A stretch of 64,000 nucleotides of DNA from Mangifera indica (taxonomy: Eukaryota > Streptophyta > Magnoliopsida > Sapindales > Anacardiaceae): NCBI RefSeq assembly GCF_011075055.1, contig NC_058145.1, positions 8,403,228-8,467,227 of the forward strand, in the 5' to 3' direction. The notes under the pieces were generated by a model. That model saw nothing but the letters and a program-made list of their open reading frames with translations, made no database searches and had not been told where the DNA came from. Positions 5,440 to 41,330 of the stretch are shown here, piece after piece. Position 1 is the first letter of the stretch; each line of letters begins with the position of its first letter. A program made the translations under genes and the position numbers.

Positions 5440-6470
5440 GCGTACTTTTTAACTTGGAACGACTATTCACTTTTTCAATATGGAATTGTTGTTAATTATT
5501 TTGGAACGACCATTCGCTTTTACTCTATAACAAAAATCTTTTCTCTCAATAAATGACTATTGTGGAATAAGTGTTTATTACTCTGAAACGATTGTTATTA
5601 TAAATTTTATAATAGATCTTCGTTCTCTATGAACAACTGTTCAGACATAACTTTTTTAATTGGCAGAATGGTTGTCCCTAACCTTGAAAATAAACATTCC
5701 ATCATATTTGGAAATTTTAATTTACTGTTCTATTAGACATTTTCTATGATTTCAATCCCAAATTCATGGCTCCAAACTACCAAATTTTCTTATTCTTATT
5801 AGATATAACATTTGATTAGGTCTCAACTCATGATAATCCATTCCAACATCACAGCAATTCCAATATTATTTATAGTCACGTGTCATAATTTCGTAATCTC
5901 AACAATTTTACTATCAATATAACATGCAAACAACTTCAAATCATTCTTTCTTATAAGGATTATCAATCTTAACATCAACCCAATCACATTCACATGTTTT
6001 TCACGAAAAATCAATGCTCTTATAAGAAGGGAGATCTTCAACTTGCTTCTCTTTTGAAAATAGTAACAATTCTTCTAGTTTGAAGCTTTAGATCCTCAAA
6101 TCTGATACAGTTTGCCAAAATATTGCTCTCAACTTTTTATGTGAACTGTAGTTATGGGGAAAAAGATAAACATGAATACAAGAGTAGGGCTCCTTTGTAT
6201 AGATTTTTAAAAATTAACCATTGGAACTAGTGTTCCTCTTTATTTGAATTGTCATTCAAAACATTTATTCTCGTTCAAAAGAGTTATCTTCATTAAGATC
6301 ATGTATCCTTCTCTTTTGAAATCATGTTTTTCTAATAAACTCTACTATGAAATGAGCATTCTTTATGGGATAATTAATCCAAATTCATGGATAGTCGTTC
6401 ATCCCTTATAATGATGTTCAAGATTTGGAATAAGCATTTGTCCAACTTGAAAAATCATTCCTTCCCCCTT
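5440..6470. repeat. LTR-like region with GGAACGAC/CATTC short repeats
   Basis: Many short imperfect copies of GGAACGACYATTCRCTTTT-like words and their variants occur, resembling the block at 61960-62160. That block lies in a Ty3 chromovirus LTR, so this is probably the remains of a related LTR. Boundaries were not resolved. Confidence 0.35.
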
Positions 6471-20955: not shown

Positions 20956-20964
20956 ATTGTTGAG
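20956..20964 (+). repeat. Target-site duplication of the MULE, left copy
   Basis: ATTGTTGAG, identical to 39982-39990. Nine bases is the typical Mutator duplication length. Confidence 0.85.
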
Positions 20965-21076
20965 GGCATATTAATTAAAATAGGCAAAAAAATTTGTGCA
21001 TAAACCTTTTTGGATAAACTTTTAATACATTTACTTTTATAAGCAAACTCATCATTTATTCTAGTAATACCCTTTC
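20965..21076 (+). repeat. MULE left terminal inverted repeat
   Basis: It begins GGCATATTAATTAAAATAGG and includes ATAAACCTTTTTGG and TTTATAAGCAAA. It aligns nearly without gaps to the reverse complement of 39869-39981, at roughly three-quarters identity by eye. Confidence 0.85.
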
Positions 21077-21384
21077 TCTCGTAATTTACATTCCTTTATC
21101 CATGTTCTTTCACCGACATCATACTCTAACAGTGCATCATTTTATTGAAAGTAAGTTTTGCAATTTATATATGTATAAATTGAAACTTTCATCCCAAACT
21201 TGTTGTGGAAACTTGCATTGATAAAAGTTAACAACTTTGAATGTTGATTTTTGAAATAGGTTGATGTTTTTTGTTTGTTCGTTGGTAGTTACCAATTATA
21301 TTATTTGTAGACAGTCAATCTATTATATTCGTCAAAGTTGAACAAGTTCTTATATCCATATCAAAACAAAAAGCAAAATACGAT

Positions 21385-21455
21385 CTTTTGGAAAATGAAA
21401 TGCTAATGCAAATATGAATGCAAGTTCGAATACAAGTGCAAATGCGAATGTGTAT
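21385..21455 (+). repeat. Short AATGCRAAT-type repeats near the MULE left end
   Basis: Several imperfect copies of AATGCAAAT/AATGCGAATGTG occur in tandem. Similar words (AATACGAATGTG) occur near the other end at 39385-39432. They could be subterminal binding sites or simple-sequence drift. Confidence 0.4.
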
Positions 21456-21554
21456 ACATATGTGTTATAAATTTTTTTCCTAAACCCTAAATGAGTGCAC
21501 TTGTTGTTTGTTTCAAAAAGTTGGGTTAATTGATTGTTTTTTCAATCAGAAAAA

Positions 21555-23154
21555 TGGTAAAGCTGATATAAATGTTTAGATTTGGTGGGCAATAGGTTAA
21601 CGAAGGTAATAATATTTCAAAATACATTGGTGGGGCTCATACATTAGTTTCAATCAACAAGAAAATAAATTATAATAGATTTGTAAAGCAGTGTGTTCTC
21701 ATTTGGGCATCAATCAAAGTTATAATGATGTAAAAAAATTATATGTCAAATGCAATGAAGTCCAATGATTTGCCATATCTATTAAAGGATGACTACGATG
21801 TTTAGATTATGATGTAGCTATCTAAGACACATAAAAGGACTTCATTATTTCTTGATATAGTTACACGCCTAATAGAAGCCAAAACCAATTATGAACAACA
21901 ACATCTAGAACCATAACAAGGGGTTTATCAATCTCCACCCATTGAAGTTCACTATTTGGATAACATACATATGCAATAGGAAAGTGTGCCTGAAAGTAGT
22001 AGGTTGAATGTGAACTTGCATCATGACGGTGTTGAGGTTAGACTTGGCTTGATTCCTTCATCTCAAGATTAGGCACATGGTAAAAGAGGTCTAGAATGGT
22101 TATGGGATACACTTAAGGGATGTTATTAAATGGGCTATTTTCCTACAGATGATTTTCACTCAAACAAAGAAGATGAATATAGTGGTTGTGATGATATGGG
22201 TGATGATAGTGATGGTGATAATAATGGTGGTAATGATAATAGTGGTGTTGAGAGGGGTGATGATGTAGGAGTTGGTCTATTAGAGATAGCCTAGGAAAGT
22301 TCAGTTCACATTTTCTACTGCATGACTGTTTTATCCCCATTAATGTGAATGTTCCAAATCCATTTTTGGTGGTCCAAAGCCTTATAGGGATGTGAAAAAT
22401 AAGGAAATTGAAACTCATTCAGTTGTACCATGAGATGGGAGATTTAGAGTGAAAGCTCTATTTGCTTGTAAATAGCTTTTAATAGATATGTTATATATGA
22501 CTGCATTGGAAAATAGTTATTAGTTTAGGATGGCAAGTACAAATAAAAAAAGATGGAATATAAAATGTGTGCATAAAAAATGCAAATGGAAAGTAGGAAA
22601 GGTGAAGTTAAGTAACAGTGACATTTTCGTGTTGCAGAGGTTGGGAACATACACTTATCTTTAGAATGTTATATGACCTTATCATAGAAAAGTTGGCAAA
22701 AGGGCACTTGAAAAAATGTTGTAGATTATGTTTACCACAAATAACCATGTATATAGGCCAAAAGACATCATAACGGATATAACAAATAGGTATAAAATTG
22801 ACATATCTTATGTTTAAGCTTGGTGTGCCAAGAATTGGGCTTTAAATGATATCAGAGGTTCACTAGATGATTCATTCAAAATATTACCAACATATTGTTA
22901 TAACTTTGAACAACAAAACTTTAACACTGTTACACACATAGACACTAATGTGGATAATTGGTTTCATTTTGTCTTTGTGGCTTTATGATACTCCATTAGA
23001 GCATTTCGTGATTATTGTAGTCCTATCATTTGTATTGATGGTATATTCTTGAAAGGTTAATTTAGGGGTACACTTTTTATTATTGTGGGCAAGGATAGAA
23101 ACAAACATATTTATTCATTAGCATTTGGTGTTAGTAGAAAGGAGAAAATAATAA
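21555..23154 (+). pseudogene. MULE transposase, N-terminal part
   Basis: Reading right with stops and frameshifts, it shows a MuDR N-terminal segment (FRFGGQ, NEGNNISKYIGG, about 21570-21900) and an acidic Asp/Gly/Asn-rich linker (about 22160-22260). A basic Cys-containing segment follows (KKRWNIKCVHKKCKWKVGK, about 22540-22600). The start of the catalytic domain is next (YCSPIICIDGIFLKG, about 23010-23060, holding the first catalytic Asp), then HIYSLAFGV. The frame is cut at 23154 by the solo LTR and resumes at 26322. This is a cut-and-paste transposase of the Mutator superfamily, not functional here. Confidence 0.85.
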
Positions 23155-26100
23155 TGTAACACCCCTTTCCAAGTACATACCTCTACCTGGAATATGACCC
23201 CCAATAGATGTGCATAACTAGGCTATTTAATTCAAAACCACATCAGCTAATACATGATCATAACTACTAAAGTGTGCAAAAAGGTACGATAATAACTCAT
23301 AAATGTACTAAAATAGAAAAATACATAAATGGAATAAAATCTATAAAAAGATAATTTTGCCTCTCATCCTCACACAACTGCTCGTTGGACCATTGGCTCC
23401 CCCTCACATGTCTTGCTCCTTACCTCTACCTATAAAATTAAAAAAAAAAAAAGAATTCATAAGTTAAAACATTCAATAAGTTGGTGACCTCTTGGCACCC
23501 TGAATATACATATAAACTAGTAAACCTAGTGTTTAATTTGTGAATATGCATCTAGTCACAACTCGACACTTTCGTGTCTTGACATAAGCTATTCACCATG
23601 GTTATTAAGGCCTAAACTGAAATCGACATATCTAATGTCTTAATGAAAGCATAAGACACCTTATGTGTCATTATCTATCGTGTCTTACGCACATAGCAAA
23701 TGACCTATTAGGCTAGTTATCTGGGACACCCTGGTCACAGAGGAAAAAATCTAATAATAGTTTTTTCACTTATCACATAAGCTAATAGAAACTATTGTCT
23801 AAAATATCTTAAGATAACCCTTGCCATGGGTACATATGTGATGCATTCCACTGACCACGTGAGGAAATATCTGAAAAGTCACAATCCCTTACCATGCACA
23901 CTTGAAATGACCTATATGGCTATGTGCCTTGACGTCAAGTGCATGATACATCTCACAAATATCCAGTGCTATTACTTTCATATATCATGGCACTTATGCA
24001 CACAATTGGTAGCTATTTGGATGTGAACCACTTTTCTTAATTTTTCTGATTTTAGATCCAGATTCAACTTGGTTGAGGTCTCGTGTCATCTTCCACATAG
24101 TTAAACACTTTTTTCTAGTTCTATCTAGCTTATCTTTCTTACTAAAATATCTTATTCTTTTCTTTTTCTTCTTCTTCTCTTTCATTGTGTTTAAACTAAG
24201 GGTAAAATGGTCTTTTAATTGGCTATACAGGTGTGTGGCTAAGGTGCACCCTTGCGTGCCTATTTTTAAATGCGATATCCACTTTTGGAAAGTCACACAT
24301 AAGAATATGTCTCATACCATACGACTATGTATGGATTTCTTCAGAACGAACACTTAAAAATTACGAAATTTCTATTTTAAACTAAGGACAAACTGAAATA
24401 TATAAGGTCATACACAGTTGTATGATATGATCTAGAGAACACAAAAAATCTATGAGTTTTATACTTTCTCTAACTATCTTTCAGTTAACAACAATAGGCA
24501 AGCTTCAGGGCATATTTCTAAACTTCTTAACTCAGTTTATAGTTCTCATAACCAAATTAATATATCCAACAAAAATCATTCTAAGCGTGGTCACTACCAA
24601 CCTATTATGCTTATTAGGGGTGAACAGGTTCAGGTACTTTGTGAAATTTTATGGAATAGAAATTAGTTAGTTCCTAAAAATAGAAACCAGAACCTAGAAC
24701 ATGTAAGGTCAGTTCCTACCCAAAGATGAACCTGTAGGTTTCAAGTAGGTTCTGGTTCTTACCCAAAACCTATACTATATCTTATATTTCAATATTTAAA
24801 ATATATTTTTTTTGTAAGCAAATATGCATGTTAACGAAATAATAAACCACTCAAAAAAGGACCTGAAGACAATCTAAGCTCCTTCAAACCCAAAAAAGGC
24901 AAGTGAAAAATCTACAAACAGAAAAACCAACACAAATTAGACAAACCATGAAAACTAGATAGTGGCCCAAACCATAACTCAATCAAAAACCAAAAAAATA
25001 ACAACCAAAATATTGTTTAATGAATATTCTTTTATATTTCAATATCAAATATTAAAAAAAAAATTCAAGATAAGCCATGTTACCACCAAATTTTTGGTGC
25101 AATGAAAATTCTATCTTCAATGTTTCTATCAATAGGAGTTAAGGAAACAACCATGCTAACAAGAAACCCAACAGAACAACAAGAGCTAAGGCTTCCTTTA
25201 AGAGAAAGGAGCACATGCACCAAATAGAATTGTAAATAGAAGATAGAAAGTAAAAGAAAGGTTGCCAACAAGCAATAGATTATTACAAGAGCAATAAGAT
25301 AAACCAGTGAGCAAAATTGAAGCAAAGTGTAACCCAACTTAGTAGACAAATGCAACAACATAAAATATTAGAATTTTATCTCTAAAAAATCTAATGAATG
25401 TTTATAGATTAAAAAATCATATTAGAATTCCATATTTAAATCCCAGTTTTGGTTTTGGTTTCAATTCTTTACAAAGAGGAATCAAAATCAGAATCGAAAC
25501 CAATCGAAACCAATCGAATCCACAAAATTAAAACCAAAACCTACTCACAATAGGTCAATTCCATGTAAGAATCAGAACCCAAGTTGGATACCCGCAATTC
25601 CAATTTTGGTTTAGTTTTTTTGCTCACCCCTAACGTTTATCTAGCCTTTAGTTTTTTTGTAACTCCAATCAAGGATCCACAACACATACACAACATATAC
25701 ATAGTTAACAAAATATTAAGAGGCATGAAATCTCTCAAGTTAAGAGACCATAATATTCACAACAAATCATCAATCTCACGGTGTACACGCACAAAAAAAA
25801 AAAAAACTATTGTATACTATGCAACTAGCAATTATTGCTCATTCATAAGCATCATAACAGGCTCACCATCTCAATAAATCATCAAGCATCATGGATTCTT
25901 ATGATAATCAACACAAAAGCCATCTTACTTACTTGGTTTTCGAAGATTGCTAAGGTTTTCACATGGTTGACGATTTTCAGCAATCGGTGGCTCATTTTCA
26001 ATGATTACAAGACTCTTCTCTCATTACTCTTTCATTTAGGTGTAATTGCGGTGAGAATCAATAATGAGAGAATTAGGTTAAAGGATTTTTTATTTTTGCT

Positions 26101-26321
26101 TGTTGGACGCAACACACAGGTGTGTATAGACTCTACACAAGCGTGTGCCTTTCTGATTTCACTACAAGTATGATCTTATCTGATAAATTCAATTTATTGA
26201 TGATACAAAATCATGTATTCTTCTATACATAGTTGTGTATCACTCTAGAAAACATTAATTAACTCAATTTAAAACAAAAAAAATGACTATAATGCCCTTA
26301 GGCTTACTTGTGGGTATTATA
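23155..26321 (-). mobile_element. Ty3 chromovirus-type solo LTR inserted in the MULE transposase
   Basis: On + it runs from TGTAACACCCC to GGGTATTATA, the inverted ends of a chromovirus LTR read on the - strand. The flanking 5-mers aataa (23150-23154) and gataa (26322-26326) match at 4 of 5. Removing the insert with one copy of the duplication makes the transposase frame continue, which confirms the boundaries. After removing the nested hAT-like element (24615-25632) it is about 2.15 kb. No gag or pol is seen, hence a solo LTR. Its first 45 bases resemble the LTR at 6855. Confidence 0.75.
24615..25632. mobile_element. Non-autonomous hAT-like element nested in the solo LTR
   Basis: Terminal inverted repeats are TAGGGGTGAAC (left) and GCTCACCCCTA (right). 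Flanks atgcttat and acgtttat agree at 6 of 8, consistent with a decayed 8-bp hAT duplication. Subterminal GGTTC/CCAATCGAAACC words repeat near the ends. No transposase frame was found. Confidence 0.65.
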
Positions 26322-27440
26322 GATAACTTGGACCTTGTTCCTCCAAATGTTACATAAGTGTATTGAAGATCTCTCATATTTAACAATCATCATAAATAGA
26401 CACCACACTATTATTTGGTGCATGAAAGAAATGTTCCCCGAATATATGCCATGATTGGCGTAACCACCATATAAAGGGGAACATACATAGTTAGTACAAA
26501 TAAACAGAACATATAGAAGGGTTATATTAGAGAGTTGTAAAAGTATGCCAGATACAAGATTTTAAGGAGGCTATGCAGATGGTTAATGATGAAAATCCCA
26601 CAGTAGTAATTTATTTGAAGGGTATTGACTATTGATAGTAGACTTGTGCTCACTTCCCTGACATTTGATATGATTTCATGACTACAAACATTGCAAAATT
26701 GTTTAACGCTTTAGCACGACACACGTAAAAGTTGTCAATGATGATGCTTCTTGAATTTCTATGTTCCATCATACATAAATGGTTTTATACTCGACACAAC
26801 ATAACAAGTTCAATCAATTTTGTGTTTCATATTTTATGCTTATGTAAATTCAAAAATTAATAAAATTTCTATACTTATTTGATCATGCAAATACTTGTAC
26901 TCATCCTCTGACTTCGTGGGTTAAAGAGAAGTTAGCTAGTCATATTCGAAAATCTGCCAATATGATTACTAAACCAATAAATATCCATAGATATGAAGTA
27001 CATGGTCTAGGGAAATCAATCAATAAAGTTAACCTTGCTATAAAGAAGTGCAATTGTAAGAAATTTCAATTGTCACAAATAGCATAAACACACATTGCAG
27101 TAATTGCCATGTTCTAGAACCTTTTGAGCTATTATCTATAGATGAGCAAAAACTACTCAACCAAATATTGAAAAACGTGAAATCATTGGGAGATCTATCT
27201 AAACGGAAGCACCACGAGGAAATCTGTGTGGTCTATCCACCTTTGATGGAACATCAACATTTCAATCGTCCTTTTGAACATAATAAAATACTATTACAAA
27301 GGGAGAAAGTATGTCAAATGGTATGTAGTCGATGTCCTGAGAGAGGCAATACAAGACTGGTTTGTACTAATCTTTTACCTGAGGTTATTGCATCTTTATC
27401 AGGTATCGGTTGTTCAAAGAGGGCATGACTTGATAAAATG
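26322..27440 (+). pseudogene. MULE transposase, C-terminal part
   Basis: Continues the transposase beyond the solo LTR. The box that is normally SDRH reads INRH (LTIIINRHHTI), so the second catalytic Asp appears as Asn (codon 26395-26397). Further on are FMTTNIAKLFNALARHT and KLSMMMLLEFLCSIIHKWF (about 26675-26795), both typical of MULE transposases. A SWIM-like zinc motif follows (KKCNCKKFQLSQI, about 27040-27085), then a decayed zinc knuckle (CSRCPERGNTRLVC, about 27325-27370, with Asn in place of the His). Several in-frame stops are present. Confidence 0.85.
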
Positions 27441-27925
27441 TTATCTTTTGTTATAAACTTGTAACGTTATAATCCCTTACTTGACAAACTGTTATCTTCT
27501 GTTACAACTTATAATGTTATAGTGTTATATTAAATCTTGTCTTCCATTATAAGTAATCTTTATTTTTTTTTTCTATTTTAGCTTTAAATTCTTTTTGTTA
27601 TATTATTCTGAATAAATAGAATTTTGTTGTATATCTTCTATTATAAGCAATTTTGTCTACTATTATCAGCAATCTTCATAATATTGTGTGGTTTATGAGA
27701 CAAAAAAAAATTGTGGCAATTTCCCTTGTAATGTATACATTTTTTTCCCTGTTTCAAACAAATAATAAATAAAAATATACTTCAGTATATGCATTCAATC
27801 CACCAGACTTCATTCAAAGCACTATTCAATTCATTCAAAGCATCATCCAACTAAAAATGCATAACATAAATCAAACAATCAACTAGAAGTAATATAATAT
27901 AAATAACATAACAAATATTAATGCA
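27441..27925. other. Tail-to-tail spacer between the two MULE genes
   Basis: AT-rich sequence with repeated GTTATCTTYTGTTAYAA words (27437-27520). It separates the 3' ends of the transposase (+) and the Ulp1-like gene (-). No coding sequence. Confidence 0.4.
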
Positions 27926-27929
27926 ACTT

Positions 27930-28205
27930 TAAATACAAATATCAATCATCCATTGTTGCCATGCTTCCAAATCTTGGATGCTACTATGCTACACATTTTG
28001 AAGGTATCTTTGGCAGCAAAGTCAAATCGACATTTTATTACAAGGTACTCAAAAACGAAGAATATGAATATCCCACAATCATCAAATGTTAGAACCTGTT
28101 GGGGCACATAGATGCATTGTGCGAGTGTCAATGGCTCTATCTTTGGCTCTACACCTCTAACCTACCAATAACCAGTTATATTGATAATAGATAGAAGGTG
28201 ACTAT
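27930..28205 (-). pseudogene. Ulp1-like protease, C-terminal segment with catalytic Cys
   Basis: On the - strand the 61-codon open stretch reads AQCIYVPQQVLTFDDCGIF and then a hydrophobic EYL segment. VPQQ...DCG is the box around the nucleophilic Cys of Ulp1/SENP (C48) proteases, which cleave SUMO-type modifiers. The Cys codon is at 28075-28077. The rest of the gene lies beyond the copia insertion, at 37005-39226. Capture of this gene family is characteristic of KI-MULEs. Confidence 0.75.
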
Positions 28206-28338
28206 TGTAAGGAATTTGTCGTCTTCAAGCAACAGAATAACATTTAAAAATTTTTAATTAATAAACAAACATACTACAAAAACCCCTTTTGAATCACCTT
28301 TGTAAGATAATTAATTCACACACTCATAGGGTGTTTAT

Positions 28339-28401
<63 letters not shown>

Positions 28402-30130
28402 GTAAAAATGATTCCTTTGACTTATATTGATTAAGACAGATTGTGAAGTCGCTCCTAGAACCAAGAGTAGGTCTAAACCTCAATATCCACACAGAGCATG
28501 GACTAAATTGGAGGCTAAAATCATGCTTGAAGGCTACAAGGGCTTGAGCATGATTTATTAATTTTGATGAAAGCCATGACAAATTGACAATGCACATTCA
28601 TCTTTTATGGCTGCTAGGGTTCAAAGAAACCAAATAAGTGTGACATTTGTTTCTTCCATGAGAAATACACTTAATACGCACTACTTTTATCTAATGTGAG
28701 AAAGTTAACTTTTAAACAAACTCTAAAAGTCATCCATAAGAAAATAACTTGTTATCACAAGTTACAAACATGTGAATATATATATCTACACATGTGGGCC
28801 CTATCCATGTGGCTTTAATTATATTTCTTATATTATTATAATATTAACTTTTATTTAAAGTTATGACCCATATGGATTATGAATTGGGCTTAGATTTATC
28901 CAACTAGATAAATCTAATCCAAGCCTATACTTTCTCACATGCAACCTTAACCATTAGGATTTTTTCACTTTAGTCCTTAAATATCATAAAATATATTTTT
29001 AGATTTAAAAACCTTCATAAGATTCGAAACCCTCAAACTAGAATCCAAATCAGATCTAACTTGGATTCATCTTAAAAAATCCTACACCTCCAAAGTTTAA
29101 TCAATTCATTTTTGTGTGTGACCCACAAGTTCTCTACTAAGTTAGTAATAATTTAATTCATATCGGGCTCCCAACCTAGCATTCGTCTAGACACTGACCA
29201 AGAACGACCTTTAGTTAGACATTATGACCACTCGATTAATGGATTGTTAGCATATGACTTCTTAATTTGTTAATGATATGATTGCTCGTACAATTTGATC
29301 CTTTCATCATACAATATCTCTTTGAGTTTAAAGTATAGATGAAGTATCTCTCTTAGGGATCCTCGAGTTACATAAACTAACTTTTGTCAAAGATTAAAAA
29401 AAATCAGATTGAGTATCAACTCAGTCCCACTATGGCCATATTTTTAGTTGGTCGTTGCTATCTGTTAGAGAGCTTTAACTAAGATATCAGTTCTCTTACT
29501 TAGGAGTGATGAATTCTATATTGATCAACCATAACCTTTGTACAGATCTTTATATGACCAATCACAACTTTTCTGGCAATCCTTTGACCAAACTATATTG
29601 GGTTGATGTCAAACCATACTGATCCTTGTATAAGACAATCTAATAATCTCAAGTGTGAGGATCACATGTACCTCTATTCATTAAAAGGATTATTCCATAA
29701 ATACTTGAGTAACTATCCATATGAAATCTTCTTGGTGGGTCAATCTAGTGAACATGTCTACAATATGCACTCATATATTACACCAAGTTGTTAACAAACA
29801 ACTTTGATACATGAGAACTGTCATCATCTTTCAATAAGGTCATTCAATACTATGATAACTATATCAGTATTACCTACGTCCTTAGTTGTGGTAATGTAAG
29901 AGTTATAGATGTTTTAAGAATAACCACCTAATATGCACATAGAATTCTCACAATGAGGTGTCGAGCATTGATTCTCTTGTCACGGTTCAACCATTCTTAG
30001 GAGATTTGTCTGAGCATATATTAATATGTTTTATAGACAAATAATGCTACAGTAAATTATAAATATAGCCTATATCAATGAACTTGTATCATCAATAGGA
30101 TTGACTCTAGGGTACCTACCCTAATAATCT
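28206..30130 (-). repeat. Copia 3' LTR
   Basis: On + it begins TGTAAGGAATTTG. It shares long diverged stretches with 35235-37004, such as GATTCCTTTGACTTATATTG and GGTGGGTCAATC. It includes an expanded (TA)n tract at 28342-28402 that the other LTR lacks. Confidence 0.8.
28342..28402. repeat. (TA)n microsatellite inside the copia 3' LTR
   Basis: About 28 TA units. The matching point of the other LTR, near 35381-35390, has only about four. Confidence 0.95.
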
Positions 30131-32639
30131 CTCAATTGCACTATAACCAATCATTAATGTAAACAATACCAAATGACTATACATGCCGATCATTGCTACA
30201 AGTATAACAAAACATTTATTGATACACTTTGTTCATTCAGTTTTTCAAATGTTAACTAACTTTTCTTCTTTTCAAGATGAAATCATGAATGTATGCAACT
30301 AGACCATTTGATGAGACCATGACATCTATTTTATACTAATAATATCAAATCGATGATGCTAGGAGTCAATTTTACAATCTAATATGCCTTATAAGATCTT
30401 ACATTTTAAATGTCTCATTCTCAACTTTAAACGTAGAATTGATTCAACATTTATATGACTTGTCCTTTTGAATCGATATTCATTATTTTCAACTTGATTT
30501 GTCTTATGTCAATGTTCCTTATTTAGTGACTTCATCCTTCAAGATCTCAAGAATTATCCATATTCTTTTTAGGAAATCAAAGATATTATCTAGTGTATCG
30601 TCCAACGACTCCTATTTGGACACAGTTGATATTTCTAAAAGATTAAGATCTTAACTGTGAGTGCATATCATAATATTCATAATCATTCTAACAGCTAGTG
30701 CTAATAGAAATCTAATCATCTTTGTCTCTCAATTTATGTGTTTAATGACACATAATTTAAGAGAGACATGTATCATTATGACAAAAGAGAATCCTTTCAA
30801 ATTCTTATTTGGTGAATCCCTCCAGTCTTCGTCTATTATGAACACTCCAACTTAAATTTGATAATTTATACTATCTACAACAAATCAAGTAAGGATATTG
30901 ACTACTTAGTTTAATTCTTATATAAAGGATTACTTGGTTACCCAAGTCTTATTATGTCAGCTACAAATTTCACATTTAATTCTAATATGTTTATCGTTGT
31001 ATAGATATACAATGTTAGAATTTTCATTGTACTCCTATTAGTTTTTATATATAAATTTCATAATCATCTTAATAAAACCAAAAGATTTTATGGTTTCATT
31101 TATATAAATATTTCTAGATTCCAATGTTCACATGAGTTTTTACATAGAACTCATTAGCTTGCATACCTAACCAACTCCTTTTCAAGATTAATACCATTGG
31201 TTGTGATATAGTCACAACTATTCTAGGTTTTATCCATTAGAGTTGCTCTCTGACAATTAATTGTTAAACTTTTAATGGTATGCAATAACTATAAGCGCAT
31301 TTAGACTTCAGTTTCACTTGTAGGCCTTAAATTTTAACATTATAAATGACCAATGCGTTTATCAAGAGTTATGAGAATTTTAATTCTTACAAACTCATAA
31401 TGCACCTCATATTTTCTACATTATTTTGTATACTTAGGCTAATTACTCATTTCCTTCTAAGAATAATTAATCTTCGCTATACTTATTGATACATCATTTT
31501 CTTTATGTCTATCTTTTTTGTAAATTAGAACTCGATTGAGTTCTACTATCCTCCCATTTGATCTTTTAGAGAATGACGTTTAAAAGAATTTCTAAAATAG
31601 ATTTTAAAACCTATTTGGACTAAAAGAACACTATTCTAAAATTTCCTTTAGAATATCACACAAGATAATTTATTTAACATATGATTCAACTAATTCAAGT
31701 TAATTGTTTAATATTAGTGTCACTATCATTGTTAAATAAGTTATTGGACTTCATTCAATGCATACAACATATATAGTGTGTTATACATAGACATAAATGT
31801 AGGTTATAGTCACTAAGGTATTACCTTAGAATATTTAGTAGGTATTAAAACTCTTACTACACCTTAAACATTAAATTGGACTAGCTATCTTATGTATTCA
31901 CCTTCTTGGTTTAACCCAAGTGATTGAATACAGACGTTAACACATTTTTTTCTTCATTTTTGAATTCCTTGAATTTCTTCAAGGTATTTAGATTCATATT
32001 TCTGAAGATCTACAAATCATATTCATTGGAATATCCAATGAATCAGATCAAATTCAAAATTTTCTTTGTTAGACACAAACTGTTAATTCTCATTGTTTAG
32101 ATGAAATTTAACAGTTGAATTATGCTCCCACTGAAAACAGTGAATAACTGACATGGTTATCTTTGTCGAAAAGACATAACTAGTATCCATCATTCAAATT
32201 AATCAAAATTCTAGTCACGACTCAGTCTTTAGTTTATTGGTCCAAATTAATTTATACAATTGAGACTTCTTAAAATAATCATAGTAATAAACCTCCTTGA
32301 AGTTTTATTTTTGAAAAATATTACAACTAGTTATTATTCCTTTTCATCTTGCCCATAGGCTAGAATGAATACATAAATCTTACAGCAAATGTGGCATACA
32401 CATACCACATCTTTAATTTGTAGGTCCACTTTTTCTCTTTGCTAGCATTCACTATGCCTCAGTTTCTTCACATCAAACAAATGTGAGGATTTAAATCTTA
32501 TGTTAAATTGTCCGAGATTTCGAGAAGAAGTCCAATTCTCAATTTCACCTGAAGTTGAAGACTTAGTCTTCCTTCTTTCATTAACTAAAAAGGTTTTGCA
32601 ATGTTTGCTTCAATGGTCAAGCTTACCATATCAAAATTA
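30131..32639 (-). other. Decayed internal region of the copia element
   Basis: I recognise no domain on either strand. It is AT-rich with many stops. By position it should hold the pol genes if the element was ever complete. Confidence 0.35.
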
Positions 32640-33060
32640 AATTACCTTACTTTTGCCAACTGCACCTTTATAAAAGTTTAGTGTATTCTAATGTACTGGC
32701 TAAAATTCAAAATTTAGCTAGGTGTCAGTCTTACTTCTTTCTTCCTTTCTTTTCAAATTGGTTTCAACCTGTATAGCCATTCTTATGTGTACTTTAGCAT
32801 TCATAACCATTTTTATCAAACCTTCAATGGATTATCCTTCAAAAAGTTCATAACAAACTTAGTGTAAGGTTCGGATAGAGATGAGACAACATAGTTAAAA
32901 GTCCATGTTATTTTTCATATGTAAGTCTAGAGTTTTAGCCCTCTCGATGAATTTAATTATATCAAACACATGAGTTTCATTCTCCACGCTATCATCCATT
33001 TTCATTTTTCTTGTAAGGATTAAATTCCCTCATTTCAGCACCAAGTTTGGGCACAACTAG
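32640..33060 (-). pseudogene. Copia gag remnant
   Basis: On the - strand short frames read ETHVFDIIKFIERAKTLDL and YTKFVMNFLKDNPLKV. The latter resembles the SYxxFVxNF region of copia gag proteins. Stops and frameshifts break the frame. Support is moderate because only short motifs remain. Confidence 0.45.
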
Positions 33061-34525
33061 TAGATTTTATGTGACAACATACAATATTCTCCTCTTTTTT
33101 AGTATAGTCTATAGACATTAATACCAATTAAGCTGTTTTGTATCTAACCCAAACTCATTTTTGAATGTCTCTTCAAAATTAGGTCATGCGTTGAGTTTAT
33201 TCTACAAAACTAAGAATAAAATCATATTTTAATTTCATATTTATTTAACATGATCTTTTGTCAAATAAATACTCCCACTTTTTATTCAAGCCAATAGCTC
33301 TCTCTATTGGACTCGGGAAATGTCAATTGACTTCTTAGCAGGCCGAGATCCTATTAAATTAATTATCCCCTTTGCTTTGATGAAAAAGTTCAAGTTAATC
33401 AATTAGGTAGGTCAATCAAACCAATCACAAAAATTCATGATCTCTAATTCAGTAGCTACGCATGAACCAATCATGAGATATCAATTGTGATTCTTGGTTT
33501 TAGTAAGGTGGATATTACTTATCACCTATGCGATAATAATTGCATGTCCCTAACTCTGCCTCTAATACACTTTCACCTTCACTTTGGCGAACAAACTAGG
33601 TGTATTAGTTAAGTTAGACTTAATATAAACAATCATTTGATCTTCCGCCTAGTAGAAATGTATCATTCACTTTAGCGAACAAGGTTCTAAGGAACAAGGG
33701 CTTACCTCAAGGCATTATATAATTGTAGGTATTTGGTTATTTTTGACTTAATAAATATATTTAAGGGATTTACTATTATCTCACCAATTTTAGTTATTTA
33801 GCTATGAGGTGATTATTAAGAAAAAGAAAACCTAATATGCATACTACAATGTGAATTAAACATGTCGGTATACAACTTTTAAATAATGTCAATCTCTTCG
33901 ACCATAAAGGGTTGACTTGTTAACCTAGATCTTTTTCTTCGGGTCTTCAATAATTCCTTCATATTCACTCTTCAAATGTATATGGCTTCATTTCTTAGTT
34001 ACAATTTTTCTAATAATGAAAAATTAAATTCTATTCTAATTTTGCATTTGTAAAACAGAAATTTCGAGTTATATTCAAGGGGAGTTAAGTGAGAAGAGAA
34101 GTATAACAAAACTTTAGAGAAGGTAGGACAAGCAGGTCTTATTTTGATTATTACAAAACCAAAAATAATAAATAAAATAAAAAACATTCATACAAGGTTT
34201 TTAAGTTGTATACTAGGCATCATGCATATACAAACATACATACATCATGATCAAAATTAAAATGAAATAATTTGAATTATTTTACCCAAGAGTTAATTTA
34301 TATTTTAATCTTTCAAGTTTTGCATAATTGTATTTCAACCCCAAAGGTCAAGAAAATCTTAATTTAGTCCCAGTTTAACAAAACATGATCAAATCAATCT
34401 TTTTCACTTTGTTGAGCATACAGGTTAAGTTTCCAGTCATGCATCGAAAATTCAAAAAACTTTCAAAAGCATCATGATTAGAGAACATGGTTAGAAGTCA
34501 CAGGCATGCTTGGAAATAATACAAG

Positions 34526-34660
34526 GGCACAACTTAGACATGGGATGTCCAGTTGTGCTCAACAACATAATTCCAGAGATGAGCCAATCAAGGGCTTGGT
34601 TGGACTTGTGCAAAGACACGACTTAGACATAGGAAGTCCAACTGTGCCCAACAACACTTT
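34526..34660. repeat. 89-bp period duplication in the copia leader
   Basis: ACTTAGACATGGGATGTCCA at about 34532 recurs as ACTTAGACATAGGAAGTCCA at 34621, each followed by TGTGCYCAACAACA. It lies between the primer site and the gag remnant. Confidence 0.6.
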
Positions 34661-35220
34661 GCTGGGTGGTGCCAAGGAAGGTGCCACTCGACCACCCTAT
34701 GCACAGCTTGTAGCAAGCCATTCATGGCATTTGCCAGGTTCAAATTCTCTAAATTTTCCAATGATGGAGAAATTAAAAAAAAAATCCTTAATTTTCGGCA
34801 AGCCATATCACCAAGGTGAGGGAATGTGGCACATAAATCATCCTCACACCAATAGTGACATTTGAAGCATGCAACAACTCAATTCGAAGGTAGTTCATGC
34901 AATTACACAAAATCAATGGTCAATCAGTTGAATTTTAAATACCCTGCATACTTCAACAATATCAAGCAAAAACTCAAAAATTAAAACTCAATAAATTTAA
35001 CACAAATTTACTTACTTTTCACAGTCTCAAACAAATTACAGAAATAAAACATCAGCGAACAATTTAAATTAAAAATAGCATCAATAAAAAAATTGTAACA
35101 ACAATTTTATGACAACCAATTACAATTTATAATAAAAAAATTTGATATCAATAATTAAAAATCTGTAATCGAATTAAATAATTTCACAAGTATAATTTTA
35201 TGAATTAATTCCTCAAGGTT

Positions 35221-35233
35221 GCCTTTGATACCA
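35221..35233 (-). other. Primer binding site of the copia element
   Basis: The - strand reads TGGTATCAAAGGC, matching the initiator tRNA-Met type for its first eight bases. It lies one base from the LTR end. Confidence 0.7.
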
Positions 35234-35234
35234 C

Positions 35235-37004
35235 TATAGGGAATTTGCAGCCTTCGGACTGTGGAATAGTGTTTAAAATTTTTAATTAATAAAAAAATAC
35301 TGCAAAAAATCCTTCTGAATCGCCCTTGTGGGATAATTAATTCATAAATATATTATCAACACTTATAAGGTGTTTATAGAATATATATGTGTAAAGATGA
35401 TTCCTTTGACTTATATTGATTGAGACAGATTGTGAAGTCACTCTCAAAACTAAGAGTAGGCCTCAACTTCAGTATCTACACAAAACACGAACTAAATCAG
35501 AGGCTAAAATCATGCTCGAAGGTTGCTAGGGCTTGAGTATGATTTATTAATTTTGATGAAAGCCACAACAATGCACATTCATCTGTTGTAATGGCTAGGG
35601 TTCAAAGAAAACAAATAAATTTGGCATTTGTTTCTTTTGTGAGAAATACACTTGTGCCATTTTTATATAATGTGAGAAAGTTGACTTTTAAACAAACTCT
35701 AAAAGTCATCCATAAGAAATAACTTGTTGTCCCAAGCCACAAACATATGAATACACATACACACATGGGCCTTATCCATCTGGCTTTAATTATATTTCAT
35801 ATATTATTATTTATATTATTATAATATTAATTTGAATTTAAAGTTATGGCCTATATGGATTATGAATTGCACTTAGATTTATTCAGTTTGATAAATCCAA
35901 TCCAACTCTCAAACCAGAATCTAGATCAGATATAACTTGGATTCATCTTGAAAAATCCTACACCTTTATAGTTTAATCAACTCTTTTTTATGTGTGACCT
36001 ATAGGCTCTCCACTAAGTTGATAGTGACTAGATTTGTGGTAGACTCCCAATCTGACATCCGTTAGGACACAAATCAAAAGTTGCCTCTAGTAAGACTTCA
36101 TAGCCACCCGATTAATAGAATATTAGCATATAACTTCTTAACTGTCAGTGATAGAGTTACTTGTGTAATTCGATCTTTTCATCATATGATATCTTTTCGA
36201 GGTTAAGGTATAGATACAGTATCTTCCTTAAGGATCCTCAAGTTACATTGACTTACTTTAATCAATGACCAAAAAAAACATTGGATCTAGTATCAACTTA
36301 ATCCCAATATGGCCATAAATTTAGTTTATCATTGCCATCCATTAGAAGGCCTTAACTGAGATATCAATTTTGTGCTCAGGAGTGACAAATCTTTTATTGA
36401 TCCATCATAGCTTTTATATAGATCTTGATATGACCAATCACAACCTTTCTAGAAATCCTCTAAGCAGACTATGTTAGGTTGTTGTCAAACCATACTGATC
36501 TTTGTATAAGACGGTTTTATAACCTCAGGTTTAAGGATCACATGTACCACTATTCACTAAGAGAACTATTCCATAGATACTGAAGTAACCATCCATATAA
36601 AATCCTCTTGGTGGGTCAGTCTCGTAAACACATCTACAACATGCACCTATGTGTTATACCAAGTTATCAATAAATAACTTTGACATGTGAGAACTATCAT
36701 TATTTTTTTATGAGATCATTCAACACTATGATAACTCTATCACTATTATATGTGCCCTTGGTCATAATAATATGAGAGTCATGGGCGTTTTAAGAATAAC
36801 CACCTAATATGCACATAGGGTTCTCATGATCAAGTGTCGAGCACTGATCCACTTATCACGGTTCAACCATTCTTAGAAGATTTGTTTAAACATATATTAA
36901 TATGTTTTATAGACAAAGAATGTCATAGTAAATTACAAATATGACCTTTATAAATGAACTTGTATCGTCATAGGAATTGGTTTTGGGTACCAACCCTAAT
37001 AACG
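35235..37004 (-). repeat. Copia 5' LTR
   Basis: The partner of 28206-30130. On + it begins TATAGGGAATTTG (TG decayed to TA) and ends near GGTACCAACCCTAATAA. Confidence 0.8.
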
Positions 37005-39226
37005 ATATCACGTCAATGTCTTGGTGAATCTCTTTATAGATTGGAAAAAGTTTGTTGATGTGTCATAAACAATCAAAGTCCATGCATTGAGCTCCACTTC
37101 ACTATATGCCCAGTGTTAAGAATTGTAGTTGATCAAAATGTAACAACAACAATCACTTCGTTATTAGTGTGACTGATTTATGTAAGGTTAAGAATTCAAT
37201 AAATAATTTATATCCACATGAGCCTATGGGATGTAGCATTGATCTAGGGCTAGATTAATTATTCCTTCAATGGGGTTTAATAGCAATTGGGGCAATTGAT
37301 AGTTATCTGGTCTAACCTCTTCCTAATCCTTTATTACTCATGACAACCACCTATTGAATGACGTCTCAACACACGTCCACTTAGTCGATGAAAATGCATG
37401 TTGTAACATGACTAAATAGTTATCAATGTGTTGAACAACAATATTATAGATATAATCATGTAATTAATAATATAATAATACATTGAAGATATAATCCCCT
37501 ATGTGGGTTAAAAATTATGTACCTAGTCCAATAGTCATTTGTTATCTTTACATAGTACATTCCACCATCCATTTTTTTTTTTTTTTTGCAATCTCCATTA
37601 AAAAATGTGGTTATAATGGTGTCTTAATTTGTTTCCTCGTACCATTGTAAAAATTTAATAATATTATTAACTTCCATTCTCTGTTGCGACGATTAGATAA
37701 CTTTTTGCATACCATCTCAATGGGTTTGTATATGGCTTAAGAAACGAATGAGCCTTCTTTATAATCCTTCCCTATAATGTCCTTTAGGTACCTCATTGAG
37801 GTTGTATCAGAGTATCACAAGTAAAGACATCCTTGTGGCTAAACAACTTAATTATAACCTCAAATGACTCACGTTGTATTATAAGAAAAAATATAACCAC
37901 TTAATTAGGAAAAAGTTATCTCGTCTATAGGGTGGCATAATACATGCGTTTGAGTTCTGCCAATTTAGCTTTGAGCAACGCTTGGTGCTTATCTAAGTTT
38001 CCAAGATGCTTATCAACTTTGTCCATGAACCCTTGTAGAAGCTTATAAAGTTGATCAATTTTATCTTCAAGCACTGACATAGATATGGTAGGAGTAATGT
38101 GGGTGGTGTTGTTTTGATCGATCCAGGTGATTTGGATATGACATGACGTTATGAGCTATGATCATTATTAGGTTCTCCTCTATCACCCACGTAATTCACA
38201 ATATTTCTGTACCATGATAATTCCCTCTCGATCATCGACAGAATCAAAATAGAAGTCACGACATTCTATCAAATGTGACAATTTCTAGGTTATAGAAAAA
38301 TATTAATTATTTTCAATTATAATGTTATAAATTGTCATAACATACTTGAGATGCCCTAAAGATGCTTTTAACATTCTCCCACCTTAGGTTTTCAAAAGTC
38401 TTCCATTTTAACATCTAGAAGACACTATCTCTGGATTTACAAATCGTAAAACCTCCCAGATTGCTCATAGTTTCATATATCCACACCTATAACATTGAAA
38501 ATATGTTGTTAGTTGTATATAATCATTCATAAAATGTAAAAGCAAAATAACTATTATCTTATACTTAGGTTATCTGAAATGCTACTGCATATCTAATCAT
38601 CTCATAAGATAGTACTGGAATATCCTCTTTATATGATGGATATTCATTCAAAACTTCATCATACCTCTTCTCTATTACTCGACTTATAGACTTTTCGGTC
38701 ATCCTCCAAATGATTATCCCTTATGGATATCTATTAAACATATCCTAGTCATCAACTAGTTTGATGGTGTGTTCTAATATGACTTTCCTATTATCTAATC
38801 CCATCAGTCCATAATAGAGCAAATATAAGACAATTAATTTCACAGTATCCTCATCATTGTTTCCTCATGCCTTGTGTTTAAAAGCTCTATCGAGATCACC
38901 ACACAATAAATGTTTGACACTTAGAAAGTACCTTTTTCTCAACTGTGCTCTCCTTGTCATAACGTAATTACTTGTGTCTGTCTCCCTGCTAAATTTTAGC
39001 CCAATTATCATAGCAAACACAACAAAGCCAAATTTACAGTCAATCTCATTGAGTCTAAACCAAAACACCTTTCCCAACACCTTATATTGACTTGTCGAAA
39101 AAGTACACAATGCATCAAAGTTAAGTTATGTTTATAAACTTCAAGATCTAAAAATTGTCCAAAATAACTTTGCCTAAAAATCTCTTTCTGGCTTCTACTA
39201 AGCTTCGTCGTTATATGATTTTCCAT
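37005..39226 (-). pseudogene. DUF1985-Ulp1 gene captured by the MULE, N-terminal and central part
   Basis: Read leftwards, an ATG near 39226 opens a frame with QSYFGQFLDLEVYKHNLTL and then KVFWFRLNEIDCKFGFVVF plus AMIIGLKF (about 38985-39170). This is the DUF1985 pattern found N-terminal to Ulp1 domains in plant MULE proteins. RKRYFLSVKHLLCGDLDRAF follows. A Lys/Leu-rich coiled-coil-like stretch (DKIDQLYKLLQGFMDKVDKH) lies near 37930-38100. The segment ends with HWAYSEVELNAWTLIVYDTS, the His/Asp part of the C48 protease (His codon 37113-37115, Asp codon 37062-37064). Frameshifts and stops are present. The copia element separates it from the Cys segment at 27930-28205. Confidence 0.75.
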
Positions 39227-39868
39227 TTCTACATGACTTTTAACACTTATAGTAGCCCTAAAGCTATGACCATCATTATACGACCTTTTCTTAAGCTGAT
39301 TATTAATTGAAAACCTCTAAAAAAACAAACATGTGAATGTTAATCCCATGAAAAAAAAAAAAACCATTTTGTAAATAGTTGGAATGCGAGTGTGAATACG
39401 AATGTGAGAGACTCTGAATATGAATGTGACCAGAATCTAACTTTCTTCTCTATTAACGATAACACAATCAGGCAAAAATCTAGTCAAACATATGATTATT
39501 TGCAAAATAAATCATCACAAATCAGTCAAAACCCTTATCCTACAAACCCTAAACTAAACTAACACTGAAATCAGCTAAAACCCTAAACCATATAAACCTA
39601 ACTACCATAAAAACCACCACACCTTACTTGATTTTCATCAATATAAAAAAGCAAAGTTGAATAAATCATCAACTAAACCCATTTCAAACTTAACAAGGCA
39701 AAGAAATGATCAAATTTACCTTAGACAACATTGTTGAACGTTATTGTGTTTGGGAAACGTTTGAAATGCAAGAATGGAGTCATTGGTATTGTGTTCTATA
39801 TTCCCGATTTTTATTTGCTATCTTCGACTCAGATTTGAAAATGTTTTGCGTTTTCTTAGATTTTGCTA

Positions 39869-39981
39869 GTAAGGGCAGAATAGGTAAATGACATGTAATT
39901 TGCTTATAAACATAAGTGTATCTAATGTTTGCCTAAAAAGGTTTAAATAGAAAGTTTTTTGGCTATTTTAATTAATATCTC
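39869..39981 (-). repeat. MULE right terminal inverted repeat
   Basis: Its reverse complement begins GAGATATTAATTAAAATAGC, then AAACCTTTTTAGG and TTTATAAGCAAA, matching the left repeat. Confidence 0.85.
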
Positions 39982-39990
39982 ATTGTTGAG
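39982..39990 (+). repeat. Target-site duplication of the MULE, right copy
   Basis: ATTGTTGAG, identical to 20956-20964. Confidence 0.85.
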
Positions 39991-41330
39991 TGATTAATGG
40001 CATGAGTGAATGAAATTTAAGTGAGAAAAAAAAAATGAAAATTTAGACAGACGGAAACCAACTAATAAGTCAACAAGATTTATGTTTTCAAATAACAAAT
40101 TAAGCCAAACAAAACAAAATGAATGTGCAACATTTCACAAAAAAATAAAAAATAAATCACAACCTTAACATTTTATAGAAAAATGAAATTTTTACCTGGA
40201 ATTGAAAGCAATAGAACAAGCAAAAACTTATCAAATTCTTTGGAAAATGGGTGAATGTCAGAGAATGAATAAGACAAAAATCAAGAAAGGTGTGGTTATG
40301 GATTGTTGAATGTGAATGAAGTTGTAAGGTTAAGGATTTGAAAGAAATAAAAATTGAGTGTTTGATTTTATATTGTTATAACACTATAATAGGTTTGTTA
40401 AAAAAATTTAGAATAAAGGGTTGGCCTACAAAAATAAATAAGGGTGAGTCTGCTTAAATTTTTTTTTTTTTAAATTAGAATTAAGGGTAGGCCTAGACCT
40501 ATCCTCAAAGGGCCCTATTTCACCTCTGGTCAAACCACGTCGATCCTTATATAGACGATCTGATGACCTCAAGTTGAAATAGTCGAAATATCATATGTAT
40601 CTCTATTTGTTAAAAGGATGTATTTCATAGACACTGGAGCTAGCTACCATCAATATGCAATTTTATTGGTGGGTCAATTCAATAGACATATCTACATAAC
40701 ATACACTCATGTATTGCATCAAATTGTCTATGAATAGTTTTGACATGTAAAATCTATTACCATCTTTTGGTGGGATCATTCAACACTTTGAAGCATAAAA
40801 TATAATTAAATCTTATCTGATATAATGTGAAATCTTTCTAGTAAAGAGACAGAGATAGTCACAATCATTCAAAATAGCTTTTTGTTTGTGAAAAATGAGT
40901 TTTTTGGTGAGTTTGGTGAAGTTCGATATCAAACCTATAAAAAAAGGAAGACCAGTAAGTAGAAGAACTATTTTAGTTTTAAAGGATGATATCATAACAT
41001 AGAGTGATGAAAAACTATTTTATGATCTATAATATGAAATTCAAACACTTTATGAATGATTGATGTTGTTTCTTGTATGTTCATAATGAGAATATGCTTC
41101 ATTAGTTGTTACGATTAGGTTGTTTGGGATTTTAATATATGAACAATTTTACAGACATTTTGATTTTGCTTGCACTCCATAACATGACCGATAATTTGTT
41201 AATTTGATAAGTATGAAAGAATGATTAAATAAAGGTCCTGATCTATAAACATTAGTACATTCAAATCTAATGTGTAAGGTCATGAAAATGGTTGTTTGAC
41301 ATGGCAAATTATGGTAGATATTGTGTTAAA
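39991..41330. other. Intergenic flank right of the MULE
   Basis: No gene recognised. It contains a truncated copy of the copia LTR (40525-40795) in otherwise AT-rich DNA. Confidence 0.4.
40525..40795 (-). repeat. Truncated third copy of the copia LTR family
   Basis: Aligned words include CAAACCACGTCGATCCTTAT, TTAAAAGGATGTATTTCATA, TTGGTGGGTCAATTCA and GGTGGGATCATTCAACACTT. They match the middle of the LTR at 29590-29870 in the same order and orientation. Both ends of the LTR are missing. Confidence 0.75.

Follow-up and report, generated by a model that had tools for sequence, protein, structure and literature searches.

The locus at positions 20965 to 39981 of the 64-kb stretch of Mangifera indica DNA analyzed here (the window) raises the question of what kind of mobile element it represents and what the second of its two genes did for it. 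The original prediction described a 19-kb nested fossil, a Kaonashi-type Mutator-like element (MULE) with its own Ulp1-like protease gene. The locus was found to be a single old, dead MULE with terminal inverted repeats (TIRs), decayed by point changes and by two long terminal repeat (LTR)-type insertions, which enlarged an original length of about 7 kb to 19 kb. Its lineage is large and includes, in this genome, members with open frames that were copied very recently. DUF1985, which is encoded by the second gene, is one of the domains of the VANC proteins (PMC5735166). As a domain of anti-silencing proteins it points to a specific likely role for this gene, a link missed in the original prediction. 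The best explanation for the DUF1985-Ulp1 gene, and one that we regard as reasonably probable, is an anti-silencing system that would shield the element from silencing.

Ends and target site duplication

Aligned locally as inverted repeats, the two ends reached a best score of 90, compared to 68 for the best of 185 random pairs from the window. The left TIR spans positions 20965 to 21058 (+ strand) and the right TIR positions 39887 to 39981 (− strand), both on the basis of the end-to-end alignment and of genome matches. The first ~100 bp of the left TIR can also be aligned to the TIR of a young relative (E 6e-11). The ungapped arms (20968-21047 and 39899-39978) comprise 80 nt with 81% complementarity, and the degraded TIRs are about 80-95 bp long, as in a TIR-MULE carrying Ulp1. 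The predicted inverted repeats are real, with arms somewhat shorter than the proposed ~110 bp.

The exact 9-bp target site duplication (TSD) ATTGTTGAG, also predicted, is located at 20956-20964 and 39982-39990. These two flanks are its sole occurrences on the + strand of the window, and one further occurrence lies on the − strand at 5898. A TSD of 8-11 bp has been used as a criterion for MULEs (PMC6446971), and an exact 9-bp duplication was likewise found in a young copy (L033, described below). A search of the whole window against Rfam gave nothing above the gathering scores.

Two convergent genes

The transposase gene on the + strand is split into three pieces. Part 1 (22506-23153) comprises DBD_Tnp_Mut and the start of the MULE domain, contains stops and shows 60% identity to the transposase of a young relative (E 1e-87). 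Part 2 (26323-26809) carries the remainder of the MULE domain (52-57% identity, E 1e-46), followed by the SWIM exon with the C-terminus at 26872-27422 (61% and 44% identity to the SWIM exon of the relative, E 1.7e-46). Both transposase exons of the relative have homologues in the window. The Pfam scores for MULE (19.3 bits, cut-off 27.6) and DBD_Tnp_Mut (21.4 bits) were below the respective cut-offs; the fossil transposase is 60% identical to that of the relative, which scores 72.8 bits for MULE.

The DUF1985-Ulp1 gene on the − strand contains the DUF1985 exon at 38571-39310, which reached 44.6 bits in Pfam (cut-off 35.1) and matches that of the young relative with 49% (E 7e-51) and 36% identity (E 5e-15). 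It is followed by the homologues of exon 2 at 37949-38259 (49% over 45 aa, E 7e-11; 31% over 55 aa, E 2e-4), exon 3 at 37588-37894 (33%, E 8e-6) and exon 4 at 37212-37448 (56%, E 5e-25). The Ulp1 exon is present in two halves. The proximal half at 37002-37142 (56% identity over 48 aa) contains the His and Asp motifs (HW, and D 17 residues past the His), whereas the distal half at 27952-28203 (46% identity, E 8e-24), cut by the second insertion, contains the Gln and Cys motifs (VPQQ...DDCG). The fossil Ulp1 (Peptidase_C48) thus retains HW, D, Q and DCG on the two sides of its break. All five exon pieces of the relative's gene have homologues in the window, and the protein identity for the pieces of both genes ranges between 31% and 61%.

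Of the domain searches suggested with the original prediction, DUF1985 exceeded its cut-off and MULE remained below it. SWIM had no Pfam match in the window, and Peptidase_C48 none in the window or in either fossil Ulp1 piece, since these domains are too broken or split; both were assigned by homology to relatives with open frames. Comparison of the fossil DUF1985 with seven young DUF1985 sequences revealed the C7, C8:1618467 and L033 types as nearest (49-53% identity), whereas the other four reached 33-35%. Searching a protein database with the DUF1985 region of the fossil returned 300 candidates, none at E 0.001, and a PDB search with the distal Ulp1 piece gave no match.

Later insertions into the element

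The first insertion (23155-26321) is solo-LTR-like (TGTAACACC...GGTATTATA) and is flanked by a 5-bp duplication with one mismatch (AATAA/GATAA). The second (28206-37001) is an LTR retrotransposon with LTRs at about 28206-30127 and 35234-37001, which are 77-79% identical to each other, and a 5-bp duplication with one mismatch (ACTAT/ACGAT). It lies within the Ulp1 exon and separates the active-site His and Asp from the Gln and Cys. The insert bounds proposed originally were correct to within a few bases.

A third piece of the LTR family of the second insertion was observed just beyond the right end of the element (window 40646-40791, 74-78% similar). In 18 subterminal segments of the window and the genome copies, the telomere-box-like sequence AACCCTAA was counted 17 times, without a control, and its occurrences in the window lie near both ends.

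Copies of the fossil family

The 391-Mb plant assembly (241 contigs) was searched for further copies. The left end (336 bp) has at least 41 genome matches (best 40 of 652 candidates scored) and the right end at least 68 (best 40 of 472 candidates scored). Two independent full-length copies were identified on contigs C3 (12119233-12126510, ~7.3 kb) and C9 (4531707-4538831, ~7.1 kb). Both contain the left end, the transposase, the DUF1985-Ulp1 gene and the right end in the same order as the window, and both are continuous at the two sites where the window carries its insertions. In the C3 copy, the sequence immediately right of the second insertion point is locally duplicated.

It could be argued that the transposase and the DUF1985-Ulp1 pieces come from two unrelated elements lying side by side, as the stretch already holds two unrelated nested insertions. 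The convergent arrangement in the C3 and C9 copies, which hold both genes, refutes this, and the same layout is seen in young elements, leaving the idea with next to no probability. Together with the TIRs and the TSD, the insert-free copies bear out the prediction of a nested MULE with a MuDR-type transposase and a DUF1985-Ulp1 gene in convergent orientation.

Further relatives of the fossil are less complete. C4 holds a deletion form of 4.5 kb, the C14 copy is partial, and short derivatives of 0.6-1.8 kb retain both ends. Four of the latter (C5a, C5b, C5c and C34) have 9-bp flanks matching with at most one mismatch, which is weak, as the loose end pattern also yields chance pairs. At the C3 and C4 copies no target duplication was seen. 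The distal half of the Ulp1 exon is also present in the C3, C9 and C14 copies, in all of which the Ulp1 Asp is lost. Stops were present in the older copies that were translated or scanned (C3, C9, C1 and part of C14). Single-frame Pfam scores were 24.1 bits (MULE) and 52.2 bits (DUF1985) for C3, 27.1 and 16 bits for C9, and 19.6 bits (DUF1985) for C1.

Two candidates were not counted. The C63 copy does not count as independent, since it matches at about 96% inside and outside the element and represents the other haplotype or a haplotig. C63:78000-102000 repeats the locus including its flanks at about 96%, with the whole nest common to both contigs, and the assembly seems to hold both haplotypes here. 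C34 and C15 look like the same locus twice, and C34 alone was counted.

A 7.97-kb element at C20:351592-359558 (L032 393-8358) has the same ends and an interior without match to the fossil. One of its frames matches the CCCH zinc finger PF00642 (20.9 bits, cut-off 20.5), and the element may be a Pack-MULE that captured a host gene. On C1:17396500-17405000 (L029) a region matching ATHILA ORF1 was observed (28.1 bits, cut-off 20.2).

Young relatives with open frames

As proposed originally, the same genome was searched for intact relatives, and open-frame members were found. The DUF1985 search gave 1608 first-look candidates, of which the best 150 were scored. All 150 exceeded the cut-off, with many open frames and several identical scores among them.

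The most complete relative is a 10.74-kb element at C5:18270425-18281163 (L034+L035, 726-11464) with TIRs of 734 bp that are 93% identical. Its DUF1985-Ulp1 exons on the + strand and its transposase on the − strand are arranged face to face. The Pfam scores were 72.8 bits for MULE and 29.6 bits for SWIM, the main transposase frame spans 703 aa between stops, and the DUF1985 and Peptidase_C48 exons are open. At its right flank, a 9-bp duplication fits only if one extra base is allowed.

A sister of this element (L033, 738-7877) is located at C6:1683237-1690376 and has 6.1 kb in common with it at 99.9% identity. It is flanked by the exact 9-bp duplication CAAATAGAG, and no transposase was found in it. 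DUF1985 (87.7 bits) and Peptidase_C48 (51.8 bits) were both detected, in sequence 99.9% identical to that of the C5 element. The His, Asp, Gln and Cys of the active site in its C48 exon align with those of yeast Ulp1 (1euv, E 0.0015). A further locus at 13.25 Mb on C6 contains both genes, with a transposase 99.9% identical over 1001 bp and one TAG in the matched stretch. At C12:509037 no transposase was present where it was expected.

The two genes are also linked elsewhere in the genome. The transposase search gave 3622 first-look candidates, of which 108 places were scored. A scored DUF1985 was found within 8 kb of 37 of them, always in convergent orientation (37/37), compared to about 0.7 pairs expected by chance. 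The other 71 places have no scored DUF1985 nearby, with 150 of the 1608 DUF1985 candidates scored. For DUF1985 of the young relative's type (profile match from position 11), 22 of 26 places have a convergent transposase and four have none among the scored places.

The ratio of nonsynonymous to synonymous substitution rates (dN/dS) between young subfamilies was calculated by NG86. It was about 0.15, 0.18 and 0.25 in three pairs of DUF1985, and single pairs gave 0.19 for exon 4 and 0.10 for the Ulp1 exon. These ratios are rough, since dS was 1.1-2.2, and at 0.10-0.25 they indicate purifying selection on the DUF1985-Ulp1 gene. Kaonashi (KI) elements are under purifying selection as well.

These results bear on whether the Ulp1 part is passive cargo, a fragment of a host protease gene captured by the MULE and without a role for the element. 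The capture of ULP sequences by MULEs and CACTA elements is described as frequent, and repeated capture or frequent loss has been proposed (PMC2528002). We nevertheless consider passive cargo very improbable here, given a multi-exon gene with open frames in recent copies, the low though rough dN/dS and the strictly convergent neighbors.

Tandem motif arrays

In the C5 element the motif CGCACCC was identified 52 times, 45 times on the DUF1985 sense strand and 7 times on the opposite strand. It is absent from the 4.26 kb flanking the element, from its interior between ~2.7 and 10.2 kb and from the 64-kb window. The spacing is 20-21 bp for 30 of the 40 short spacings. The arrays occupy the inner edges of the TIRs and the upstream regions of both DUF1985 and the transposase, and they persist in the transposase-less L033. 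Genome-wide the pattern of motif pairs was found 573 times, compared to 0 for the reversed control.

The proximity of arrays to DUF1985 was analyzed for the first 100 array places, which cover C1 and the first 10.1 Mb of C2. On C1, an array lies within 12 kb of all three DUF1985 places that share the relative's profile type (11-141), and of none of the ten others; on the covered part of C2 this holds for 0 of 8 DUF1985 places. Some array clusters without a scored DUF1985 adjoin a transposase match (C1:7.94 Mb, C1:17.33 Mb and C2:10.10 Mb).

Ten further DUF1985 loci were inspected for upstream repeats. Repeats with an 8-mer in at least five copies were found at eight of them, six of which form one related group. 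The 8-mers were TTCGAATT with at least 13 copies in five loci, CCGCGCAA with 10 copies in one and CACCGCGC with 5 copies in one; the sixth locus of the group has a long repeat with other 8-mers. CGCACCC was absent upstream of nine of the ten, and the C7 locus contains four occurrences. A subfamily-specific tandem motif in non-coding DNA, as known from VANC systems, is present in the young elements with exceptions and less clearly in the fossil.

In the fossil, degenerate subterminal clusters of GAATRYRAR were found on the + strand at 21395-21465 (2 clustered hits, reached in 1 of 200 shuffles) and at 39370-39440 (4 hits within 60 bp, 0 of 200 shuffles), as candidate target arrays. In 16 held-out segments the motif had 27 hits compared to 3.2 in shuffles (2.2 per kb versus 0.27 in flanks). 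These hits in relatives of the fossil are not independent evidence, the copies being related. Read along the DUF1985 strand, it may represent hexamers of ATTCGC that have decayed.

CGCACCC, CCGCGCA and CGCACGC (from L033, L042 and L044) and the fossil CGCATTC (DUF1985 strand) all contain CGCA. This may be due to chance, and the TTCGAATTT group lacks CGCA.

The arrays could instead be docking sites of the transposase. The DUF1985-Ulp1 protein would then assist transposition differently, for instance as a protease that removes SUMO from the transposase or repair proteins. Their position towards both ends, their persistence in L033 and in some short derivatives, and the conserved active-site residues of the protease fit this explanation. 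In contrast, the arrays are also located upstream of both genes besides the inner TIR edges, and the upstream repeats vary with the DUF1985 subfamily, whereas the transposases are more alike. The element at C7:11663043 has a different repeat, yet its transposase is 86% identical. Docking sites are thus the less likely explanation, though a more serious one than passive cargo.

Comparison with known elements

The kind of element to which the fossil belongs is already known from the ULP-bearing TIR-MULEs of grapevine, where ULP occurs in either orientation, and of melon (PMC2528002). Like the element described here, Mutavine-4 and its relatives combine a MuDR-type transposase with a downstream Ulp1, TIRs and a 9-bp TSD. 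Mutavine-4 is 7.1 kb long including the ULP-1 region, with TIRs of 141-144 bp and a TSD of 9 (PMC2528002), and the original length here is also ~7.1 kb. The description of this group in the consulted part of that source, on which the comparison is based, does not mention DUF1985, motif arrays or anti-silencing (PMC2528002). In a survey of Mutator elements, a VANDAL group has TIRs of 46-174 bp, and half of its members carry extra protease-module or DUF genes (PMC6446971; 'PMD' is taken here as protease module).

The Kaonashi label of the original prediction applies only in part. An Ulp1-like protease gene opposite to the transposase is present, as in the likewise multi-copy KI/KIU elements of Arabidopsis (PMC2528002, PMC13317346, PMC6117577). 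However, KI-MULEs are described as non-TIR MULEs (PMC2528002, PMC13317346), whereas the lineage analyzed here has TIRs, which reach 734 bp in the young relative.

VANDAL21 and VANDAL6, with VANC21 and VANC6, likewise combine a DUF1985 protein with short tandem motifs that differ by subfamily (PMC5735166, PMC10398659). VANC proteins bind such family-specific motifs in the non-coding DNA of their own VANDAL family, which leads to loss of methylation (PMC5735166, PMC10398659). The VANDALs differ in their degenerate TIRs and target motifs, and in the portions of these sources consulted DUF287 is drawn and no Ulp1 is mentioned (PMC5735166, PMC10398659). Anti-silencing has been demonstrated for these VANDALs; for the lineage analyzed here it is a prediction from sequence. 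According to a 2026 review, VANC genes with a transduplicated Ulp1 domain are known as KIUs, each KIU-carrying VANDAL acts on its own kind of motif, and the function of Ulp1 in KIUs is given as unknown (PMC13317346).

The literature searched contained no description of motif arrays for MULEs that have both TIRs and DUF1985-Ulp1. An EMBO J paper of 2022 on how VANC evolved in eudicots reportedly treats DUF1985, Ulp1 and motif periodicity, and much of the idea presented here may already be anticipated there.

Proposed role of the DUF1985-Ulp1 gene

The young relatives match the VANC/KIU anatomy in gene content, layout and arrays, which leads us to infer that their protein acts likewise and that the arrays are its targets. 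The DUF1985-Ulp1 protein would bind arrays of short motifs, specific to each family, in the non-coding part of the element itself, the putative targets being CGCACCC in the young relative and the degenerate GAATGCGA-type cluster in the fossil. It would remove silencing marks at these arrays, so that the transposase could be made and the ends would become usable, and derivatives lacking a transposase could use them as well. Mark removal probably requires the Ulp1 domain as an active cysteine protease, with SUMO or another protein as its predicted substrate.

Several points weigh against an anti-silencing role, which is predicted from sequence. The arrays may be sites used by the transposase. 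The published drawing of VANC proteins shows DUF1985 and DUF287 (PMC5735166), and any contribution of Ulp1 to anti-silencing is hypothetical. Open exons do not prove a working gene. Only 3 of 18 listed array clusters lie near a scored DUF1985 (C1 3/11, C2 0/7), and C2:6495810, a DUF1985 of the relative's profile type (11-140), has no listed array. One of the ten further loci lacks an array and another has a weak one, in a set without a shuffle control.

For the fossil, the motif is degenerate, was picked from the window and is absent from 5 of the 16 held-out segments. A search of the genome for three CGCATTC, as expected in a fresh array of this motif, gave 0 hits, compared to 1 for the reversed control. 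A third-position excess was found in just one of seven coding pieces among the fossil copies (p 0.006, uncorrected), and the fossil family itself shows mostly neutral decay.

A wider form of the anti-silencing explanation is proposed tentatively, at somewhat less than an even chance. MULEs with long TIRs would run a complete DUF1985-Ulp1 anti-silencing system without loss of their TIRs, and directional arrays with a phase of ~20 bp would reach into these TIRs. Transposase-less elements would keep and spread the gene alone, and the subfamilies would have swapped arrays (CGCACCC, CCGCGCA, TTCGAATTT). The fossil, with its decayed ATTCGC hexamers, would represent an extinct specificity.

Degenerate TIRs and VANC genes co-occur in VANDALs, and TIR degeneration has been proposed as an escape from RNA-directed DNA methylation, a causality given as untested in the consulted part of that source (PMC10398659). 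The fossil provides time depth, as the convergent two-gene layout predates the decay of its family. With its 734-bp TIRs, DUF1985-Ulp1 gene, dense arrays, near-identical copies and transposase-less sister element, the young lineage makes both the TIR-escape idea and the role of Ulp1 directly testable. If the proposed role is correct, such an anti-silencing system would not need the loss of TIRs.

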